Assembly: GCA_027083715.1 (NCBI GenBank)
Contig: JALWNR010000534.1
Coordinates: 1 to 12,963 of the forward strand
DNA length: 12,963 nt
Source: Bacteroidales bacterium
GTDB lineage: Bacteria > Bacteroidota > Bacteroidia > Bacteroidales > NBLH01
Direction: 5' to 3'
Translations under genes and position numbers: made by a program
Shown here: positions 41 to 10,108 of the stretch, one piece after another
Layout of the letters: each line of letters begins with the position of its first letter
Numbering within the stretch: position 1 is the stretch's first letter
Notes under the pieces: model-generated
The model's database searches: none
What the model was told of the DNA's origin: nothing
What the model saw: only the letters and a program-made list of their open reading frames with translations

Positions 41-931
41 TTAGTATTCCCAAAGATCTTGCTCAAAATTAAAAATACTTTCTTTGATACGTTCAGCTTC
101 AAGCAATGATTCCAAACCAATTGTATATTCACTTATGGCACGGTTATTATATGCATTTGACTCCTGAACAATATAACTCGAAAAATAGCGCTTAAAGAAA
201 ATATCATCAAACGAGTTTCTTTCAGCGTCATTATAAGGATTAAAAACCTCATGACTGGCTAAAATTTTTCTGGCTTCCGGAAAATATACCCAAAACAACT
301 TAGTTCTTTTTATTTCTTCCATATCCACTGTTCCTCCTCCTTCAACATCTTCTTCCTCAGCCCCTTCTCTTATCGACTCTCTGATTGGACAAATTCCAAT
401 TATACGAACATCCAGAACAGAACGTTGTTTATCAAAAAACCACAACTCTTTAACTAAAAAAGATTTTACCTCCTTTGCCCGGATTTCACCTTCTACAACT
501 TGCGGAATCATTTCACCGGTATTAATATCTTCAACCCAAATTGTATCTGTCTGTGCATCAAAACGCTCTTCAATTTCCTTAACGGTCATTACGGTAGCAA
601 ACTCATCACCCGGAGTTTCATCATAAGCTGTTAGCCCCTGATTACGAACACCCCACAAAAGCAAATCAATTAAACTCATGCGGTCTCCTATTGGAGATTC
701 CGGATAATATAAAGGGTGATTCATCTTTTCACGCAAAGGAATCATCCTCCAAATAGTTTTTGACCACATCACATCAGCCTCACGCAAATACTGATAAGGC
801 ACTGGTTTTCTGTTTAAGGTTTTCTCTTTAACATAAACTCCATTCAAAACATCTTGTGCATTAATAAAATCAGGAATAAGCACAAAAAAAGTCAGCAGAA
901 TGATGATTAATCCTTTTGTTTTCATTATCAT
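41..931 (-). CDS. gldN: Gliding motility / T9SS ring protein GldN (PorN)
   Basis: GldN is the periplasmic partner of the lipoprotein GldK; together they form the large ring under the outer membrane that is part of the type IX secretion system. The 296-aa product starts with a signal peptide (hydrophobic stretch 7-19, likely cleavage after A25, INA|QD). A family-like N-terminal region follows (VLNGVYVKEKTLNRKPVPYQ near 28-47, then ADVMWSKTIWRMIPLREKMN near 52-71). Family-like motifs also include KELWFFDKQRSVLDVRIIGI at 161-180, FWVYFPEAR at 213-221 and the C-terminal EQDLWEY. An acidic, glycine-containing loop sits at 189-207. The start is ATG at 931; an in-frame ATG two codons later (925) is equally possible. 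It is the last gene of porP-gldKLMN, 74 bp after gldM, with two hairpins in the gap. Identification is by recognised family sequence and gene order. Confidence 0.95.
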   Translation of the reverse strand: MIMKTKGLIIILLTFFVLIPDFINAQDVLNGVYVKEKTLNRKPVPYQYLREADVMWSKTIWRMIPLREKMNHPLYYPESPIGDRMSLIDLLLWGVRNQGLTAYDETPGDEFATVMTVKEIEERFDAQTDTIWVEDINTGEMIPQVVEGEIRAKEVKSFLVKELWFFDKQRSVLDVRIIGICPIRESIREGAEEEDVEGGGTVDMEEIKRTKLFWVYFPEARKILASHEVFNPYNDAERNSFDDIFFKRYFSSYIVQESNAYNNRAISEYTIGLESLLEAERIKESIFNFEQDLWEY

Positions 932-1005: not shown

Positions 1006-2556
1006 TTATTTTACTCTTAGTACCAAAGTTCCTAAATCGCGTTTTGAACCATCAGGACCAACAGCCTGTATATCTTCAAAATACACTTTTTTCCCAGAAG
1101 GAATTTTTCTAAGCTGAGAACGTATTGTACCGAAACTATTACTTTTAACAATTTTTTCTTTCGTAAATCCTTTATCTGTATAAGAAAGTTTAAAGCTAAC
1201 CACTCTAAACTTTAAATTAAAATCAAAGTTTTTTAAAACAGCTTTAATTCCAGATTGAGCTGCCAGCCAACCTCTTGATACAGAACCTTTACGTTTATCA
1301 CCAATATATGCTACAGGGTCTGGTACTCTTTTTACACGAAACTCTTTACGCCCCATGCTTTTCTTTCCGCTTTCAGTATCAATACTGGCAGATATATAAA
1401 CTTTTCCTGTTCTTTTTACTCTTACCACATACCCTTTTCCTTTTTTCCTGATACTTCCATTAGAAATAGCTACATGTATTTTGTTAGGATCAATACCGGG
1501 AACGGATACATCTACCGGATTATCCACCCCAATGTAAAATACATTCATTTTTGTTGGAGAAACAACTAAAGCAGCCTCGCCAACAGTATAAGTACTGGTA
1601 AATGGGAATTTTAAAATTTGTTTTGTCTGCGGATGTACCATTTCAATAACACCGCCCCAAGTTTTTACTCCTGGCGAGGAAGTGTTACCTGTAAAAATAC
1701 CTTTCCCGTTTTTAACAGGTAAGGTAGAACCACCATTTAATCTAATCACAGGATCAACAGTGGAGTCAGATGCAGCAATAAATACCTGAGCTGTATAAGG
1801 CTGTCCTTTCAAAACATAGTTCGTAGGCGCATTTACAATGGCTTCTATTTTATTAAATTTAAAGGATCCTGCATCAATTTGGCTAAATAAATAACCCAAT
1901 ACATCCGATTCTGCATTACGGATATCTGCCTGCATTTTAGACATTAAGGTAATAACACCCGCCATAGGCAAATGCTCAAAATTAGCAACTTCCCACGGAA
2001 CTTTTTCACCTCCTTGTCCTTTAATATCATCAGTACTTAAATTTTGCTTAAGTGTTTTAATCAAAGGGGCATTTTCCGGTTTATCTTCAACCAAATTAAT
2101 TAAAAAATCACGATATGCAGCAATTTCTTCTTTAAGAATTGTAGCTCGCATTTTTCCATCTACTCTTTCCGTAATCATAATTTGACCCGGAACATTTGTA
2201 TCGTCCTTTCTTAGAATACTGTCCGGACGACCATCCGGTCCGTCAGCAGTTCGTACAATCAAATATTTTAATGAGTCTATATCAACATATAATTTATTTG
2301 ATTCTGCACCAACCTTATCCGCTTTATTTTTCCAAGCCTTTGTTTTAGCAGGATTTTCTTTCACTGCAGCCTCAAATTTGGAATATATATCTCCATTCTT
2401 ACTGATTGTATTCTCCGTTGTAGCTCTTAAACTGTTATCAATTAAAATAAAAGCATTAAGAACTTCGGCAGAAACATTCAGCGCAAGCAAGGCAGTAAGT
2501 ACCAGGTACATCATACCAATCATCTTTTGCCTTGGTGTTTCTTTTCCGTGTCCCAT
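1006..2556 (-). CDS. gldM: T9SS motor protein GldM (PorM), periplasmic stator/rotor arm
   Basis: GldM pairs with GldL to form the inner-membrane, proton-motive-force-driven motor of the type IX secretion / gliding machinery. Its long periplasmic part reaches the GldK/GldN ring. The 516-aa product has the hallmark N terminus: MGHGKETPRQKMIGMMYLVL, with TPRQKM at 7-12, one transmembrane helix at about 12-33, then SAEVLNAF. R9 occupies the same position as the arginine known in Flavobacterium GldM to face the conserved GldL glutamate inside the membrane. The rest is periplasmic, ending in the GldM C-terminal domain (about 440-516, including VYFEDIQAVGPDGSKRDLGT). The start ATG at 2554-2556 gives exactly the family N terminus. 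It lies 40 bp after gldL and 74 bp before gldN. Length is normal for the family and no damage is seen. Confidence 0.97.
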   Translation of the reverse strand: MGHGKETPRQKMIGMMYLVLTALLALNVSAEVLNAFILIDNSLRATTENTISKNGDIYSKFEAAVKENPAKTKAWKNKADKVGAESNKLYVDIDSLKYLIVRTADGPDGRPDSILRKDDTNVPGQIMITERVDGKMRATILKEEIAAYRDFLINLVEDKPENAPLIKTLKQNLSTDDIKGQGGEKVPWEVANFEHLPMAGVITLMSKMQADIRNAESDVLGYLFSQIDAGSFKFNKIEAIVNAPTNYVLKGQPYTAQVFIAASDSTVDPVIRLNGGSTLPVKNGKGIFTGNTSSPGVKTWGGVIEMVHPQTKQILKFPFTSTYTVGEAALVVSPTKMNVFYIGVDNPVDVSVPGIDPNKIHVAISNGSIRKKGKGYVVRVKRTGKVYISASIDTESGKKSMGRKEFRVKRVPDPVAYIGDKRKGSVSRGWLAAQSGIKAVLKNFDFNLKFRVVSFKLSYTDKGFTKEKIVKSNSFGTIRSQLRKIPSGKKVYFEDIQAVGPDGSKRDLGTLVLRVK

Positions 2557-2596: not shown

Positions 2597-3490
2597 TTAA
2601 TCATTAACATTTACATTCATTGCTGCAAGCATATTTCCGTAAATGTTATTCAAGGCTTCTAATCTGGCACCAAGTTTCTTAATTTCCGAATGGTATTTTG
2701 CAGATTGTGTTACTGAACCATTCAAATCTTCCATCATCTTATCCAAATCAGCATCACTTAGCTGAAGTTCAAAAATGGCATTTAAAGCAGTAAGGTTTTT
2801 ATTTAAAGTATTCACTTGTTCTGAGTACACTTGATTTCCTTCTTTCAAAGCAGTAAAATCAATATCCATACTATCAGCCAAGCGTTCGTATGCAGCAACA
2901 ACGTTTCCATTCTTTTCTGAAACTTCTTGTGCAGTTTTTGAGAATGTATCGGAAAGATTTTCAACTGAATAGCTTAAAGATTCAGCTGATTGTTTTGAAA
3001 CTTCACCAAATTCAGTAACAGAATTTGCGGCTGTTTTTACTTTTTCAGAAAATTCTTTAGTAGCAATGGTTGCATCGGAAATATCCGAAATCTGCTCTAC
3101 TTTTTCAGTAAGGTTGCTTAATCCATCGCCTAATTTGGCAAATAAATCAGCTCCTCCAGATTTTTCAAGCATTTCATCAAATTTAGCCAACGCTTCGCCA
3201 GAAGTTTTCGGGCCTGATGTTGAAGCAAATTCAACCTCATCATCTTCGTCTAAACCGGCTAATTGAGGATAAACCAATGTCCAGTCTAATTCTTCATGTA
3301 ACGGTTCAAAAGCAGAAAAGAAGAAAATAATTGCTTCTGTTCCTAATCCCGCCATAAGCATATAGTTTGCACCCGGCCAGTGAAGAATTTTAAAAAGTGC
3401 ACCAATAATTACCACTGATGCTCCTATTCCGTATAATTTGGCCATAAAGTTTTTCCATCCGTGACTTTGTGTTATTTGAGCAAGTCCCAT
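2597..3490 (-). CDS. gldL: T9SS inner-membrane motor protein GldL (PorL)
   Basis: GldL is the cytoplasmic-membrane proton-channel half of the GldLM motor that energises type IX secretion and gliding. The 297-aa product has two transmembrane helices, about 20-37 (YGIGASVVIIGALFKILHW) and 43-61, followed by FEPLHEELDWTLVYPQL, a GldL signature. Y20, K34, H37, E52 and E62 match the membrane-embedded or membrane-proximal residues I recall from Flavobacterium johnsoniae GldL (Y13, K27, H30, E49, E59). The remaining ~200 residues are cytoplasmic and rich in heptad-like helical segments (about 100-297). The protein is longer than the ~215-aa Flavobacterium form and closer to the ~300-aa PorL of Porphyromonas. 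Start ATG is at 3488-3490. It lies 87 bp after gldK, and no promoter-like box was found in that AT-rich gap, so co-transcription is likely. Confidence 0.97.
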   Translation of the reverse strand: MGLAQITQSHGWKNFMAKLYGIGASVVIIGALFKILHWPGANYMLMAGLGTEAIIFFFSAFEPLHEELDWTLVYPQLAGLDEDDEVEFASTSGPKTSGEALAKFDEMLEKSGGADLFAKLGDGLSNLTEKVEQISDISDATIATKEFSEKVKTAANSVTEFGEVSKQSAESLSYSVENLSDTFSKTAQEVSEKNGNVVAAYERLADSMDIDFTALKEGNQVYSEQVNTLNKNLTALNAIFELQLSDADLDKMMEDLNGSVTQSAKYHSEIKKLGARLEALNNIYGNMLAAMNVNVND

Positions 3491-3577: not shown

Positions 3578-4996
3578 TTAATTAAATTTACTAAAATCCC
3601 AATCAGCACCATCACGTCCCATAAATGAACGAACACAACGGAATCCAACATAAGATTTAGCAGTGTCTTGATATTCATAAGTACGTGTACTTACTTGCAA
3701 ATAATATCCGATATCTTTCCACGAACCGCCACGAATAACTTTTCTTTTTAATACCGGAGGGTCATCTGCTAATGCATTATAAACATAATCAGGGTTTAAA
3801 TCGTGCGTGAAGCTGTATGCTGATTCATCAAAAGCATTTGATGTCCATTCAGCTACGTTACCGGCCATATCATACAATCCCCACTCGTTTGGAGAAAATA
3901 ATGCCACTTCAATGGTTTCATTAGCTCCATCGCTGCCATAATTCCCTCTTAAAGGCTTAAAGTTAGCAATAAAACATCCTGTATTATTACGAGTATAAGG
4001 TCCTCCCCAAGGATACATAGATAACATTAAACCTCCGCGAGCTGCATATTCCCATTCTGCTTCTGTAGGAAGGCGATAATCTTCAAATGGTGGTTGTCCG
4101 TGTTTGTCCATGTAAATACGCATAATCTGTGTTCTCCAAATACAAAAAGCATTGGCTTGCTTCCAGTTTACTCCTACAACAGGGTAATTGTCAAATGCCG
4201 GATGCCAGAAATATTTTTTAGCATAAGGCTCATTATAAGAATAGGTATAATCTGCCATCCATACTAATGTATCAGGATATACATTTATACGAGCAGACAT
4301 TACAAATGACGAACGATCTTTTATGGCTTCTTTTTCTCCTTTACTATTAATGATTTCGCCATTATATTCACCACCGGTAAAATCTTCGTTAAAATTATAA
4401 CGATTTGATTTTTTGGCAGCCTGTTTTAAATCTACCCAATAATATTCGTAAATCAGTTTACGGGTATCCACTTCCTTTCTTCTGTAAAAACGTTCATTAA
4501 CAGGTAAGAAAATATCGCTAATAGCATCCTGATATTCTTCATCTTCACTATTCCAATAAATTTCTTTTTCCCAATTTAGGTAACAAGTTTTTGGATCATC
4601 ATGATCATAACCCGGATGGGCAACTTCTTCATTAATTTTAGCTTTATAATCCTCACCATCCACTTCAATTTCGTTTTCAACAAGCATTCGTCGAACGATT
4701 GAGTCGCGTACCCAATATACAAATTGTCTATATTCATTATTGGTTATTTCAGTAATATCCATCCAAAAAGGATCAATAGAAACTGTTTTTGATTGTGCCG
4801 TCATTGCAAAAGGCACATCCTCATCATTTGGTCCCATAATAAATGAACCCATTGGAATAAATGCCATTCCATAAGGATCGGGTTCATAAAACTCTTTTCT
4901 GTCGGGTACACCCACCAGTTCACCAACAGGACCTGTGTTTTTATTGCAGCTGGTAATCATTAAAACTACCAAACTAAAAAGAATCAATTTTTTCAT
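3578..4996 (-). CDS. gldK: T9SS ring lipoprotein GldK (PorK), FGE-sulfatase fold
   Basis: GldK is the outer-membrane lipoprotein that assembles with GldN into the periplasmic ring of the type IX secretion system. From the ATG at 4994-4996 the product is 472 aa. It has a lipoprotein signal peptide MKKLILFSLVVLMITSC, lipobox ITSC, modified cysteine C17. The FGE-sulfatase/SUMF1-like domain is split: N-terminal part with GMAFIPMGSFIMG (43-55) and MDITEITNNEYRQFV (79-93), an insertion of about 170 residues (94-266), then YPVVGVNW (271-278), RLPTEAEWEYAARGG (308-322), YDMAGNVAEWT (375-385), RGGSW (422-426) and GFRC (451-454). The cysteine pair of true formylglycine-generating enzymes after RGGS is missing, as expected for a structural GldK. 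An upstream in-frame ATG at 5023 (nine extra residues, MAMKLRFVD) is possible; I prefer 4996 because it gives a standard lipoprotein signal. Confidence 0.95.
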   Translation of the reverse strand: MKKLILFSLVVLMITSCNKNTGPVGELVGVPDRKEFYEPDPYGMAFIPMGSFIMGPNDEDVPFAMTAQSKTVSIDPFWMDITEITNNEYRQFVYWVRDSIVRRMLVENEIEVDGEDYKAKINEEVAHPGYDHDDPKTCYLNWEKEIYWNSEDEEYQDAISDIFLPVNERFYRRKEVDTRKLIYEYYWVDLKQAAKKSNRYNFNEDFTGGEYNGEIINSKGEKEAIKDRSSFVMSARINVYPDTLVWMADYTYSYNEPYAKKYFWHPAFDNYPVVGVNWKQANAFCIWRTQIMRIYMDKHGQPPFEDYRLPTEAEWEYAARGGLMLSMYPWGGPYTRNNTGCFIANFKPLRGNYGSDGANETIEVALFSPNEWGLYDMAGNVAEWTSNAFDESAYSFTHDLNPDYVYNALADDPPVLKRKVIRGGSWKDIGYYLQVSTRTYEYQDTAKSYVGFRCVRSFMGRDGADWDFSKFN

Positions 4997-5033
4997 ATCA
5001 ACAAACCTTAATTTCATTGCCAATGCTGTTTAA

Positions 5034-5966
5034 TTATAAAAATCTAACACTTTTGTACTTTTGCGGTGCTTTATCAAAGCCTAAGCTGAAACAATATCCC
5101 AGCATTACTTCATGGCTTCCACCATTTGTACTAATTAATTTTGAGAAATTCAAGCCGTAAGCATAACCGAGCCGAATTCCGTTGAACAATTCAATACCTG
5201 CCATAATATCAATTGCATCAATTGTCCTATATGTAACGCCACCCCAGAATTTTTTATTGTATGTTGCCGTAAGATTTATTGTAATTTGTGCCGAGGCAGC
5301 ATCTGATTTAATTAATAAATTAGGCGATAAATCAAGACTTCCGTCCATTATCTGCCAATTATATCCAGCCATTAGATAATAATGTCTTTTTAAAAAAGAT
5401 TGTTCAGAACTAATCAGGTTTAACTTAGGTTCAGTCAGATGTGTTGCAGAGAGTCCGATATAAAAATCTCCGGCAAGATAAGTTAAGCCAAAAGACAAGT
5501 CAAACACCATACTATTATCCTTTTCGGCAGGAATAGCCGGATCTGAATTTGCCGGAGCATCAGGAGGAGTCCAGCTTCCATCGAAAGCAATATTGTAAAA
5601 CCCTGCATCAACACCAAAACTTAATTTATTATTTCCTAAATTAGCAAAATAGGCATATTGTAAACCTAATTGGAAGTTATTTTCAAAGCCTAAACGATCA
5701 TCCATAACAGAGATCCCTACTCCACTTTGAGTACCAAAAATATTTAAAGGCATATTGGCATTTAATGCAGTTGTTTTAGGTGCTCCTTCAAATCCCACCC
5801 ATTGCTGGCGGTTTATTATACCTACACAAATATCACCTTGGCTGCCTGCAAAAGCCGGATTAATTTCTACTTTATCAAAAAATATATGACTAAAAACCGG
5901 ATCTTGTTGTGCAATTATATTTGTCAGGCTGCTTAATAATATAATTATTAATAATGCCCGTTTCAT
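5034..5966 (-). CDS. porP: PorP/SprF family type IX secretion outer-membrane protein
   Basis: PorP/SprF proteins are outer-membrane beta-barrels of the type IX secretion system that connect the GldK/GldN ring to secreted proteins carrying a C-terminal sorting domain. From ATG 5964-5966 the protein is 310 aa, with a signal peptide MKRALLIIILLSSLTNIIA|QQ. The family signature follows: QDPVFSHIFFDKVEINPAFA, then RQQWVGFEGAPKTT. Repeated amphipathic strands such as SGVGISVMDDRLGFE, NLGNNKLSFGVDAGFYNIAF and SFGLTYLAGDFYIGLSATHL are typical of a barrel, and the end YKSVRFL fits the family. The frame extends upstream to a TTG (5999), adding 11 residues before the signal peptide. I reject that start because the promoter candidate at 5997-6028 overlaps it. 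It heads the operon, 37 bp before gldK, the porPKLMN order of Porphyromonas. Which substrate it serves cannot be read here. Confidence 0.93.
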   Translation of the reverse strand: MKRALLIIILLSSLTNIIAQQDPVFSHIFFDKVEINPAFAGSQGDICVGIINRQQWVGFEGAPKTTALNANMPLNIFGTQSGVGISVMDDRLGFENNFQLGLQYAYFANLGNNKLSFGVDAGFYNIAFDGSWTPPDAPANSDPAIPAEKDNSMVFDLSFGLTYLAGDFYIGLSATHLTEPKLNLISSEQSFLKRHYYLMAGYNWQIMDGSLDLSPNLLIKSDAASAQITINLTATYNKKFWGGVTYRTIDAIDIMAGIELFNGIRLGYAYGLNFSKLISTNGGSHEVMLGYCFSLGFDKAPQKYKSVRFL

Positions 5967-5996
5967 AAATATATAATATGTTTTAGTTAATCTAAG

Positions 5997-6028
5997 CAAA
6001 GTAAATAAAATTTTTTAATGATTGCAAA
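5997..6028 (-). promoter_or_regulatory. Candidate promoter of the porP-gldKLMN operon
   Basis: On the minus strand, TTTG (6025-6028) is followed after 20 bp by TTACTTTG (5997-6004). This is one mismatch from the Bacteroidota -7 consensus TAnnTTTG with a -33 TTG at the usual distance. Transcription would begin near 5990, giving a leader of about 25 nt before the ATG at 5966. No comparable box was seen in the gaps inside the operon. Pattern match only. Confidence 0.5.
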
Positions 6029-6166: not shown

Positions 6167-7327
6167 TTATCTCATTTTTTGTAAGTTTCTTATCCAACGC
6201 TCAGGTATTTCCTGTTCACAAGCTAATTTATAATCATGATAAGAACATGCGATTATCTTTTTTTTCTGAGGGTGTTTTGGATCGGGAACTTCCATCCACC
6301 AACGGTCATTGTCAATGTTTCTATAAAATATAAGATTTTGCTCTTTACTATCGAAATTTACAATGTATTTAGTGTACTTTTTGAGTCCTCCCGCCGGATA
6401 GTCCTGATACCTGTTTGTAAGACCATCAATAAAATACCAGATAATTTGTGCACAAAGATTAACGGTTTGATTATTTACATCAAATTTAGGATTAACATTA
6501 TATATACCAAAAGAAGTTAATTTATCGCTCAATCCTGCATATCGTGCCAACTGACAAATTTCTTCACCATAGAAACCGTTAGCCGAAGGGTCATGAAAAG
6601 CAGGAGCTTCGGATTGTTTTACTGCACTAATATCAAGGCTAACCATATCTGCATCACGAAATATTGGTTCTGACTCCTTTAATCTGGCACGAACATTCCC
6701 CAAACGAAGTGCATCAAAATTTAATTTATTGATTAATTTTTTTTCTTCTTTATTTACATAATATGCCTGATAACCTATGTTGGTATAATTAAACAGATAT
6801 TCTCCATGACGAAGAATTATATAGCCAATATGACTATTTTCGTCAAAATCATCGGTAATGTATCCTATATCAAAACGAGCATCAATATTAACAATGTTGA
6901 TTTGTTTTTTGAGTTCTTTATATGCCAGAAAGTTTCCATAGGTTAAATCTTGACTTCCGCCGATAATAAGCGGTACAATATTTAATTTGATAAGTTCGGC
7001 TATTACATGACCCAAAGCAATATAGGTATCATTTAATGTTTTTCCCCGTTTTAAATTTCCTAAATCGACAATGTGTGCGTTCTCTGGTTGATTAAGTCGA
7101 TAAAATTTTTCCCTGATAATATCCGGCGCATCAGCAGTTCCTTTATTGGGTGTAATTCGTTCTTCGGGTACTCCCAAAATAGCAATTTTGTAGTTATCCA
7201 AATTTGTTATCGGCTCATTTTTTGTGTTTTTATCAATATGGTATGATGCGTATTGATTGTTTTTTATTTTTTGACTGATATTTAGTTTATCTAAATCAAT
7301 TTTATCGAAATATGCAAGTAATTCCAT
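6167..7327 (-). CDS. Arginase/formimidoylglutamase-family protein, predicted metal-site-deficient pseudoenzyme
   Basis: The 386-aa product has the ureohydrolase (arginase, agmatinase, formimidoylglutamase) fold by motif order, but its metal site is altered. Where active members have GG[DE]H it has GGSQ (123-126, His to Gln126). DAHxD is DARFD (149-153, His to Arg151). SxDxD is SLDIS (230-234, second Asp to Ser234). D149, D153 and D232 remain. The downstream SEAPA region and YGEEI still align with the family. Beyond the fold is a C-terminal extension (about 306-386) with DRWWMEVP, ACSYHDY and PERW. Homologues annotated formimidoylglutamase are, to my memory, found beside gldK in other Bacteroidota with the same GGSQD motif. 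I infer a non-catalytic or repurposed role, possibly linked to the neighbouring T9SS, not histidine breakdown. The frame opens with TTG at 7333, but ATG at 7325-7327 is the better start. A promoter (7363-7393) and terminator (6122-6148) suggest separate transcription. Confidence 0.85.
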   Translation of the reverse strand: MELLAYFDKIDLDKLNISQKIKNNQYASYHIDKNTKNEPITNLDNYKIAILGVPEERITPNKGTADAPDIIREKFYRLNQPENAHIVDLGNLKRGKTLNDTYIALGHVIAELIKLNIVPLIIGGSQDLTYGNFLAYKELKKQINIVNIDARFDIGYITDDFDENSHIGYIILRHGEYLFNYTNIGYQAYYVNKEEKKLINKLNFDALRLGNVRARLKESEPIFRDADMVSLDISAVKQSEAPAFHDPSANGFYGEEICQLARYAGLSDKLTSFGIYNVNPKFDVNNQTVNLCAQIIWYFIDGLTNRYQDYPAGGLKKYTKYIVNFDSKEQNLIFYRNIDNDRWWMEVPDPKHPQKKKIIACSYHDYKLACEQEIPERWIRNLQKMR

Positions 7328-7594: not shown

Positions 7595-10108
7595 TTATTT
7601 TTTTGATTTTTTCTTTTTGGAACTTCCTGTTTCCATCTCAACAATTTTTAAACAATCATCTAAACTAAGTTTTTCGGCATCCACATTTTTATCTAAGCGA
7701 AAATATTTTGTTTTATATTTAATACAAGGTCTTCCCCAACGATCTTTAATAACACGAATATCTTGATTTTCAGCAAATTCTTTTATTGTTTTTTTCTTAT
7801 CGGCTTCGCGCTTAGCTTTAATAAGTTCAATGGCTCTATCTAGGGTAATACTAAGGGGATCGTCAGTTTTTTTCAAAGAAACAAATTTTCCGTCATGACG
7901 CACATAAGGACCAAAACGTCCCACCCCAATTACCACTACTTTATCTTCAAATTTACCAAGTGTACGGGGCAATGCAAAAAGTTTTAAGGCTGCTTCCAAG
8001 TCCAAAGTATCAACACTCATTCCTGCAAGAAGGCTAGCATATTTCGGCTTTTCTTTATCACCGGAACTACCAATTTGCACCATAGGTCCGTATCTTCCAA
8101 CACGAACAAAAACAGGTTTTCCGCTTTCGGGGTCATCACCTAAATAGCGACCTTCTTTATTGTTTTTTAACAAGTCAAGAGCATCTTCCAAAGTAATGGT
8201 TTCTATAAGTTGATTTTTATTGAGGCTTGCAAACTCAGGTTTATCACCATTTTGAGCATCACCAAGTTGAACAATGGCACCATAACGTCCCATTCTTGCT
8301 AACACGACTTTTCCTGTTTCAGGGTCTTTACCAAGAATTTTTTCACCACTACCCCGTTCAGATTTTTCAAGAGTTTCTTCAACTTTCGGGTGAAATGCTT
8401 TATAGAACCTGTCAATCATTTTTGTCCATTCTAACTTACCCAGAGAAATTTCATCAAACTGTTTTTCAACCTTTGCAGTAAAATTATAATCCATTATTGT
8501 CTCAAAATATTTCAGAAGAAAATCATTGACAATCATGCCAATATCTGTTGGGAACAGTTTGGCTTTTTCTTTATTGAAAATTTCTGTTTTCTGCATTTTT
8601 TGAACTTTGTTTGCAGATAAAGTGTATTGAGTAAATATACGTTCAAAGCCCTCACGATCTTCTTTAACAACATATCCTCGCTTTTGAATGGTGGAAATAA
8701 CCGGAGCATAGGTTGATGGGCGTCCGATACCTAATTCTTCTAACTTTTTAACCAAACTGGCCTCGGTATATCTTGGAGCACTTTTTGAAAAACGTTGAAT
8801 TGCATCAATTTTTTGCATATTCAAATGTGCATCCACATTAAGCTCCGGTAGGCTTCCTTTTGCTGCATCGCCATTTTCATCATCAGATGATTCAATATAT
8901 ACTTTTAAGAATCCTTCAAATTTTATACGCTCACCTGAGGCCACAAACTGTCCGGAGCAAGACGATGCTTTAATAAAAATATTTGTTTTTTCAATTTGAG
9001 CTTCACTCATTTGCGAAGCTATAGTTCTTTTCCATATCAGTTCATACAAACGCTTTTCTTGATAAGTACCCTCAATTTGTCTATTTTGCATATAGGAAGG
9101 GCGTATGGCTTCGTGTGCTTCTTGGGCACCTTTTATTTTTGATTTATATGTCCGTTGTTTATGATATTTATCTCCAAACTCATTAACAATTTGATTTTTA
9201 ATAGCCTTTAATGCATCGTTTGATAAATTTACAGAATCAGTACGCATGTAGGTTATTTTTCCCGATTCATACAATCTTTGCGCAACCGACATGGTTTGTG
9301 AAACTGAAAAGCCTAATTTACGACTTGCCTCTTGCTGTAATGTAGATGTAGTAAAAGGAGCAGCAGGAGAACGTTTTGCCGGTTTACGTTCAATATCGGT
9401 AATTTTATATTCGGAAGTTTTACATTTATTTAAAAACTCTTCTACTTCTTTTTCGGTTTTTAATTTATTTTCAAAATCAGCTGTAAGCTGAACTGATTTA
9501 TTTCCTGAGGGTATTTCAAAAAGAGCAATTACTTTAAAATCTGACTCGGGTTTAAAATTTAATATTTCACGCTCACGCTCAACAATTAGCCTTACTGCAA
9601 CCGATTGAACACGCCCAGCCGATAAAGAAGGTTTTACTTTTTTCCATAAAACAGGCGATAGTTCAAAACCTACCAAACGGTCTAAAATTCTGCGTGCTTG
9701 TTGTGCAGCCACCAAATTTTGATCAATTTTACGTGGATTTTTTATTGCACTAAGAATAGCATCCTTAGTAATTTCATGAAAAACAATACGTTTTGTTTGA
9801 TTTTCATTTAGTTTGAGTGTATCGTACAAATGCCAAGCTATGGCTTCTCCTTCACGGTCTTCATCAGAAGCCAACCAAACAATTTCAGACTGTTTAGCCA
9901 GCTTTTTAAGTTCTGCAACAATTTTTTTCTTTTCGGGACTAACTATATATTTTGGTTGATATTTGTTTTTAATATCAATGCCTAGATCTTTTTTAACCAA
10001 ATCACGGATATGTCCGTTACTGGATTTTACCAAAAAATCTTTGCCTAAAAATTTTTCAATTGTTTTTGCTTTTGCAGGAGACTCTACTATAACTAAGTTT
10101 GATTTCAT
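7595..10108 (-). CDS. topA: DNA topoisomerase I (type IA)
   Basis: This enzyme relaxes negatively supercoiled DNA by cutting and rejoining one strand through a 5'-phosphotyrosine. The 837-aa product has the TOPRIM domain first: E9 in NLVIVESPAKAKTIEKFLG, then the acidic triad D82, D84, E86 in ASDEDREGE. The topoisomerase core follows, with QQARRILDRLVGFELSPVLW (136-155) and SAGRVQSVAVRLIVERERE. The catalytic tyrosine is Y287 in GKITYMRTDSVNLS. The C-terminal third holds topoisomerase C-terminal repeats, each with a V(x)MGRYG / VRVGRYG / IGVGRFGPYV core. It ends in a lysine-rich tail (KKKKSKK). No CxxC zinc-ribbon motifs are present, so this is the zinc-free C-terminal type. Start ATG is at 10106-10108. 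It is divergent from the PBP gene, has a candidate promoter at 10121-10152, and is separated from the next gene by about 270 bp holding two inverted repeats. Confidence 0.97.
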   Translation of the reverse strand: MKSNLVIVESPAKAKTIEKFLGKDFLVKSSNGHIRDLVKKDLGIDIKNKYQPKYIVSPEKKKIVAELKKLAKQSEIVWLASDEDREGEAIAWHLYDTLKLNENQTKRIVFHEITKDAILSAIKNPRKIDQNLVAAQQARRILDRLVGFELSPVLWKKVKPSLSAGRVQSVAVRLIVEREREILNFKPESDFKVIALFEIPSGNKSVQLTADFENKLKTEKEVEEFLNKCKTSEYKITDIERKPAKRSPAAPFTTSTLQQEASRKLGFSVSQTMSVAQRLYESGKITYMRTDSVNLSNDALKAIKNQIVNEFGDKYHKQRTYKSKIKGAQEAHEAIRPSYMQNRQIEGTYQEKRLYELIWKRTIASQMSEAQIEKTNIFIKASSCSGQFVASGERIKFEGFLKVYIESSDDENGDAAKGSLPELNVDAHLNMQKIDAIQRFSKSAPRYTEASLVKKLEELGIGRPSTYAPVISTIQKRGYVVKEDREGFERIFTQYTLSANKVQKMQKTEIFNKEKAKLFPTDIGMIVNDFLLKYFETIMDYNFTAKVEKQFDEISLGKLEWTKMIDRFYKAFHPKVEETLEKSERGSGEKILGKDPETGKVVLARMGRYGAIVQLGDAQNGDKPEFASLNKNQLIETITLEDALDLLKNNKEGRYLGDDPESGKPVFVRVGRYGPMVQIGSSGDKEKPKYASLLAGMSVDTLDLEAALKLFALPRTLGKFEDKVVVIGVGRFGPYVRHDGKFVSLKKTDDPLSITLDRAIELIKAKREADKKKTIKEFAENQDIRVIKDRWGRPCIKYKTKYFRLDKNVDAEKLSLDDCLKIVEMETGSSKKKKSKK

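Follow-up and report, generated by a model that had tools for sequence, protein, structure and literature searches.

The window analysed here, a stretch of 12,963 nucleotides from a Bacteroidales bacterium (assembly GCA_027083715.1, contig JALWNR010000534.1), carries a ureohydrolase-like gene that lies between topA and a block of genes of the type IX secretion system (T9SS), porP-gldKLMN. By profile scans, the other seven main open reading frames (ORFs) of the window were found to encode T9SS proteins, topoisomerase I and a PBP1a, the last of which lies beyond topA on the opposite strand. The protein under study scored above the Pfam gathering cut-off for PF00491 and is therefore a member of the arginase/ureohydrolase superfamily (Table 1); its predicted fold is the three-layer alpha/beta/alpha fold of ureohydrolases. 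The score with the formimidoylglutamase (HutG) model TIGR01227 was 100.7 bits, below the equivalog cut-off of 229.15 bits, and no signal peptide was evident by eye. Because metal ligands and a HutG motif are lost, a C-terminal domain is added and purifying selection is strong, the gene probably belongs to a Bacteroidia-wide family of pseudo-ureohydrolases that is related to formimidoylglutamase and would act as a non-catalytic binding protein.

The metal site in the family and in HutG-like proteins

The six Mn positions are occupied in the window protein by Q126, D149, R151, D153, D232 and S234; three of the six ligands are replaced, including both histidines, as the original prediction had read from the sequence. 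The equivalence of these residues to the ligands was shown by alignment with a paralogue from the same genome (L001) and 20 further HutG-like ORFs from the phylum, and these 21 ORFs, L101-L119 among them, were used as outgroup. The family set comprised 157 ORFs, namely the window protein and those read from the loci L003-L060, L062-L099 and L121-L180; five of them are not full length and six are gapped at a ligand position. Scoring of the ligand positions in such homologues, which had been proposed as a check, revealed no family ORF with more than four canonical ligands: none was kept in 3 ORFs, one in 28, two in 9, three in 99 and four in 18. Without the six gapped rows, the corresponding numbers for the remaining 151 ORFs were 1, 26, 7, 99 and 18. 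A separate set of 179 rows (the window, 58 loci and 120 database proteins, the latter used only here) likewise contained no protein with more than four ligands. In the outgroup, 15 of 21 ORFs had all six (H,D,H,D,D,D) and six had one substitution, which was Asn for the first His in L104, L108, L109 and L114, Asn for Asp in L101 and Cys for Asp in L001. The Cys of L001 is located at the position of the bridging Asp 232 (H,D,H,D,C,D; TVCTDVF), where the other 20 outgroup ORFs have Asp.

The six ligands were divided into an Mn-A and an Mn-B set, a division which we assume to hold as in arginase. The private Mn-B ligands were nearly always lost in the family, and H151 and D234 were not found together in any of the 157 ORFs. 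Since the Mn-B ligands are lost and the Mn-A histidine is mostly replaced by Gln, the aligned residues indicate that a two-metal site like that of active enzymes cannot be assembled and that canonical two-metal chemistry is excluded. Furthermore, the substrate motif SG[STA]x[FY], which was defined in this analysis from the outgroup ORFs and follows the DAHxD strand, was present in 21/21 HutG-like ORFs and in 0/157 family ORFs including the window protein. Seven Bacteroidales members (L014, L015, L020, L022, L023, L027 and L056) have lost the GG motif (GSSED or GNSED) and carry Asn at position 232, D149 being the only one of the six ligands that remains; the topA-porP-gldK neighbourhood is kept in these seven.

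Table 1 Features of the window. Positions count from the first nucleotide of the window; residue numbers are those of the window protein.
Feature	Position	Strand	Evidence
Pseudo-ureohydrolase (pseudo-formimidoylglutamase, predicted), 386 aa, ATG at 7327	6167..7327	-	PF00491 83.5 bits, cut-off 22
Q126, in place of Mn-A histidine (GGxH)	6950..6952	-	Family ORFs: Q 102/157, H 18/157
D149-x-R151-x-D153: bridging Asp and Mn-A Asp retained, Mn-B His replaced by Arg	6869..6883	-	Family ORFs: D149 132/157, H151 5/157, D153 118/157
D232-x-S234: bridging Asp retained, Mn-B Asp replaced by Ser	6626..6634	-	Family ORFs: D232 132/157, D234 10/157
N277; Glu at the same position in 21/21 HutG-like ORFs	6497..6499	-	Glu in 74/152 full-length family ORFs
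Family-specific segment, residues 208-224 (R208, E220, R224)	6656..6706	-	149, 152, 151 of 152 family ORFs; 0, 1, 0 of 21 HutG-like ORFs
C-terminal extension, residues 306-386 (RWWMEVP...C..HDYKLAC..EIPERW), predicted beta4-alpha2	6170..6412	-	At most 5 residues there in 21 HutG-like ORFs
topA, DNA topoisomerase I, upstream neighbour	7595..10108	-	Profile match
porP/sprF-like T9SS membrane protein	5034..5999	-	Profile match
gldK/porK	3578..5023	-	TIGR03525, 582 bits
gldL/porL	2597..3490	-	Profile match
gldM/porM	1006..2556	-	Profile match
gldN/porN	41..931	-	Profile match

Some relatives of the window protein bear the source name formimidoylglutamase, a label which the original prediction had disputed and which the low TIGR01227 score does not bear out. 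That the protein is a still active formimidoylglutamase, as these labels say, is very improbable: the score amounts to less than half of the cut-off, the Mn-B ligands, the substrate motif and Glu277 are lost, and a better HutG candidate is encoded in the same genome. This candidate, L001, is the second PF00491 protein of the genome (191 bits), is located on another contig and carries the SG[STA]x[FY] motif. HutH was found above its cut-off in the same genome as well, and with a HutG-like gene and HutH as the genes sought, the window gene would not be needed for histidine breakdown.

Conserved residues, C-terminal extension and selection

Conservation in the family has moved to other residues. 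Across the 152 full-length family ORFs, E220, W297, Q187, G251 and G90 vary hardly or not at all, and R208 (149 ORFs) and R224 (151) as well as, in the C-terminal part, F334 (150), W343 (144), W344 (146), C361 (149), Y366 (145) and P375 (141) are near-invariant. None of the 21 HutG-like ORFs has R208, R224 or the C-terminal signature residues, E220 was found in one and W297 in four. Ranked among all 386 positions, E220, W297, R224, R208, F334 and C361 are among the ten most conserved; D149, D232, D153 and Q126 follow at ranks 40, 44, 61 and 102, so that the acidic remnant of the metal site is still fairly conserved, and the two Mn-B positions 151 and 234 drift freely (ranks 301 and 223). Two divergent members, L158 and L159, retain only one of six ligands (R,T,T,G,D,S and S,S,A,S,D,N), and the ten-residue signature R208/E220/R224/W297/F334/W343/W344/C361/Y366/P375 is complete in both; six of the ten residues are found in L157. 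Four ORFs (L158, L157, L129 and L123) form very long branches in the tree, with 1.67 to 3 changes per column; their arginase-like core is barely recognisable, yet the R/E/R/W and C-terminal signature is largely preserved.

The C-terminal extension, of which the HutG-like ORFs have 0 to 5 residues, is present in all full-length family ORFs except L051, where the contig ends. Its predicted order of secondary structure elements is beta-beta-beta-beta-alpha-alpha, and no confident match was found in the PDB. An SH3-like identity of this domain was considered and dropped, the sequence matches being too weak to use.

The family is under strong purifying selection: dN/dS had a median of 0.036 and a maximum of 0.151 in 28 pairs with defined dS (40 partly overlapping pairs were tested of 61 close pairs). 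Together with the recurrence of the protein in 157 ORFs, this agrees with the original prediction that the gene is not decaying and encodes a conserved pseudoenzyme. In a tree of 52 of the 157 family ORFs and the 21 HutG-like ORFs, the two groups were split with a support of 100/100 and a branch of 1.35.

Taken together, we suggest a cytoplasmic, non-catalytic binding protein, the location being suggested by the lack of an evident signal peptide, which would bind its partner by residues of the segment 208-224, W297 and the C-terminal domain; the old active-site pocket would serve at most as a ligand pocket. Several points weigh against this proposal. The three Asp of the Mn-A side (D149, D153 and D232) are all present in 113/157 ORFs, and the complete Mn-A set with His in 15/157; since three acidic ligands remain in most members, a one-metal site is possible for the majority that keeps this side. 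Asn at the position of the first His, which was found in 4/21 HutG-like ORFs, may be compatible with Mn binding, because the formiminoglutamase of Trypanosoma cruzi, which we take to be active as wild type, presumably has Asn (N114, the residue of the N114H variant named in the title of 4myn) at this position. Moreover, it is an inference that the conserved residues come together on a single surface.

From the retained residues a mononuclear metalloenzyme could be imagined, in which the Mn-A half-site (Q/H126, D149, D153 and D232) binds one metal for another reaction and Lys or Arg at position 151 replaces the charge of Mn-B. In line with this, 111 of the 113 ORFs with all three Asp have Q, H, N or E at position 126, and Lys or Arg occupies position 151 in 69/157 ORFs. 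But 44/157 ORFs lack the three Asp (a few of them because of gaps) despite a conserved remainder of the protein, position 151 takes 17 different residue types, and diverged members lose the site. We therefore regard a mononuclear enzyme as unlikely.

A second possibility is that the protein is a subunit without catalysis of its own by which an active ureohydrolase, in this case the HutG of the same genome, is completed. The precedent within the superfamily is MetCb, the pseudo-subunit of the metformin hydrolase MetCaCb, which, according to PMC11271267, has five of six ligands changed, is encoded beside its active partner MetCa and is needed by it. A HutG-like paralogue is indeed present in the genome of the window, and two or more PF00491 matches were found in 92/99 genomes. 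However, the paralogue is located on another contig, no other arginase-fold gene was found by profile scans among the scanned neighbours of the window gene, and in two genomes (G099 and G424) the family gene is the sole PF00491 match, within the limits of a profile that can miss divergent members. An active arginase-fold partner thus seems not to be obligatory, and we consider such a subunit improbable. A caveat comes from G296 and G297, which have one PF00491 match each, not at family level, and in which the family alignment (A1) finds the gene: as PF00491 missed the family gene there, it could also have missed a divergent partner in G099 or G424, which again counts against a protein that works without such a partner. 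Divergent family members are apparently overlooked when PF00491 is the only profile used for annotation.

Gene order and co-occurrence with the T9SS

The gene order topA, family gene, porP and gldKLMN recurs. Among 130 genomes for which the places of both genes were listed, gldK was found at most 2.8 kb downstream of the family gene and on the same strand in 89; it was farther away on the same contig in 3 and on another contig in 38, some of the latter perhaps due to assembly breaks. Linkage to gldKLMN, as expected of a T9SS core gene, is thus common and not universal, the two genes being far apart or on different contigs in 41/130 genomes. The first gene upstream is linked about as often: of 58 loci, 19 were too short for a count of neighbours, and in the other 39 both topA and gldK were found 23 times, topA only 3 times, gldK only 4 times and neither 9 times, giving 26/39 for topA and 27/39 for gldK. 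In ten loci without gldK beside the family gene, no other T9SS gene was recognised by eye. In a Bacteroidales locus without a topA or gldK match (L007, 3728-6001), the start of the gene and the stop of a PBP1a-like gene share one base. The original prediction had placed the Gln motif beside gldK; it does recur in linked homologues (Q126 in 29/37 gldK-linked members, window included), but 16/22 of the other members from L003-L060 have it too, which makes it a trait of the family that is not tied to linkage.

Next to gene order, the distribution of the family was compared with that of GldK; absences of GldK, GldM and GldD are absences at the thresholds used. In 198 genomes of Bacteroidia, the family was found in 185 (E <= 1e-18; two of these, G378 with E 9.7e-26 and G452 with E 5.2e-34, may be HutG or fragments) and GldK in 186; 180 genomes had both, 5 the family only, 6 GldK only and 7 neither. 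In 296 genomes of the phylum, 111 matched at E <= 1e-20, and matches outside the class Bacteroidia ended at model position 323 or earlier; the 19 of them that were read (L101-L119) are HutG-like. A database search gave 6862 proteins at E <= 0.001 among 7999 scored, not all of which belong to this family. In 199 Bacteroidales genomes, for which a completeness of at least 95% was requested (the genome of the window has 92%), the family was found in 139 (E <= 1e-40) and GldK in 186; both were present in 137, the family only in 2 (G634 and G659), GldK only in 49 and neither in 11. Fisher tests gave p-values of 4e-5 (Bacteroidales, family versus GldK) and 6e-7, relatedness being ignored.

A protein of this kind may assist or regulate the T9SS or gliding motor from the cytoplasm, by binding a GldKLMN/PorP-related factor or by linking the expression or assembly of the T9SS to a metabolite signal. 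This would be a special case of the binding protein and does not exclude it, and we consider it possible. The recurrent position upstream of gldK, the presence of both genes in 180/198 Bacteroidia and the finding that 137/139 gene-positive Bacteroidales have GldK speak for it. On the other hand, a T9SS core component is expected in essentially all T9SS-positive genomes, but no match was found in 49/186 GldK-positive Bacteroidales and 6/186 GldK-positive Bacteroidia, and topA is as close a neighbour as gldK. Of ten T9SS-positive loci without the gene that were fetched, two (L181 and L183) keep the order PBP1a-topA-porP-gldK with the gene absent between topA and porP, their porP and topA matches being separated by about 220 and 60 bp; no topA match was seen in the stretches of the remaining eight. 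The gliding genes do not explain these absences, since GldD, a marker of gliding, is present in 39 of the 49 GldK-positive genomes without the gene (counted from the tables; 134/139 with the gene and 173/199 overall).

Conversely, G634 has the family gene, and no match to GldK or GldM was found in it; as a control, the genome of the window matched GldM with 374.4 bits. G634 is the best natural counter-example to a role in the T9SS only. It is a Bacteroidales genome of 2.7 Mb on a single contig, and its family ORF (L140) keeps the signature residues. The second genome with the gene and without GldK, G659, is a draft, and GldK is present in G528 and G603, which belong to the same taxonomic family. 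The 11 genomes with neither gene belong to the families f2 (3), f115 (2), f175, f178, f189, f191 and f195 (2). Since f175, f178, f189, f191 and f2 (G443), which account for 7 of the 11, also hold GldK-positive genomes without the family gene, the co-loss is not independent evidence and speaks weakly for a joint function; loss of the gene may often precede loss of the T9SS.

The role in T9SS or gliding that had been suggested in the original prediction is therefore plausible and unproven: gene order is its main ground and keeps it in view, and the equal linkage to topA and the 49 GldK-positive Bacteroidales without the gene leave it weakly supported. No mutant data on secretion or gliding for this gene were found in the papers searched. 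Tentatively, the first partners to consider for the proposed binding protein would be the proteins encoded by the adjacent genes porP-gldKLMN. In a more specific and doubtful scenario, a histidine-degradation enzyme of a class-wide lineage would have turned into a cytoplasmic, non-catalytic component of the T9SS or gliding machinery (an assembly factor, motor regulator or metabolite sensor) by means of the new C-terminal domain and then come under tight constraint while its active site eroded.

Relation to known proteins and meaning of the family

In sequence and fold, the nearest characterised neighbour of the window protein is HutG (TIGR01227; 4mxr, 3m1r and 1xfk), with which it shares the ureohydrolase fold over residues 23-307, the GG motif and the DxxxD strand. 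Unlike HutG, the family has no Mn-B ligands and no SG[STA]x[FY] motif, does not consistently keep E277, carries the extra C-terminal domain and forms a separate clade. The Trypanosoma brucei arginase-like protein of Hai et al. (2015) is reportedly an arginase fold that evolved without a binuclear Mn cluster; the PDB entries 4rhi-4rhq, which were matched by the window protein, are presumably structures of it. That protein is eukaryotic and derived from arginase, whereas the window family is a HutG-like lineage found throughout Bacteroidia. The nearest functional precedent would be MetCb (PMC11271267), likewise an arginase-fold protein without the binuclear metal site, which is kept as a binding partner. 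Ligand loss in a fold-intact protein is common to both, but the catalytic partner of MetCb is encoded next to it, and the neighbours of the window gene are topA and T9SS genes.

Arginase-fold pseudoenzymes are already known as a kind. The open-licence PMC papers searched gave no description of a HutG-like lineage that spans the class, has a C-terminal extension and lies beside the T9SS operon, and the available part of PMC10936215 holds nothing on this gene. In their source records, several family members are called formiminoglutamase, formimidoylglutamase or arginase, yet the family seems to be catalytically dead, so that metabolic models which count such members as histidine-degradation enzymes would be in error here. 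The family, which was detected in 185 of 198 Bacteroidia genomes, is strongly constrained and often located beside the core of the T9SS.
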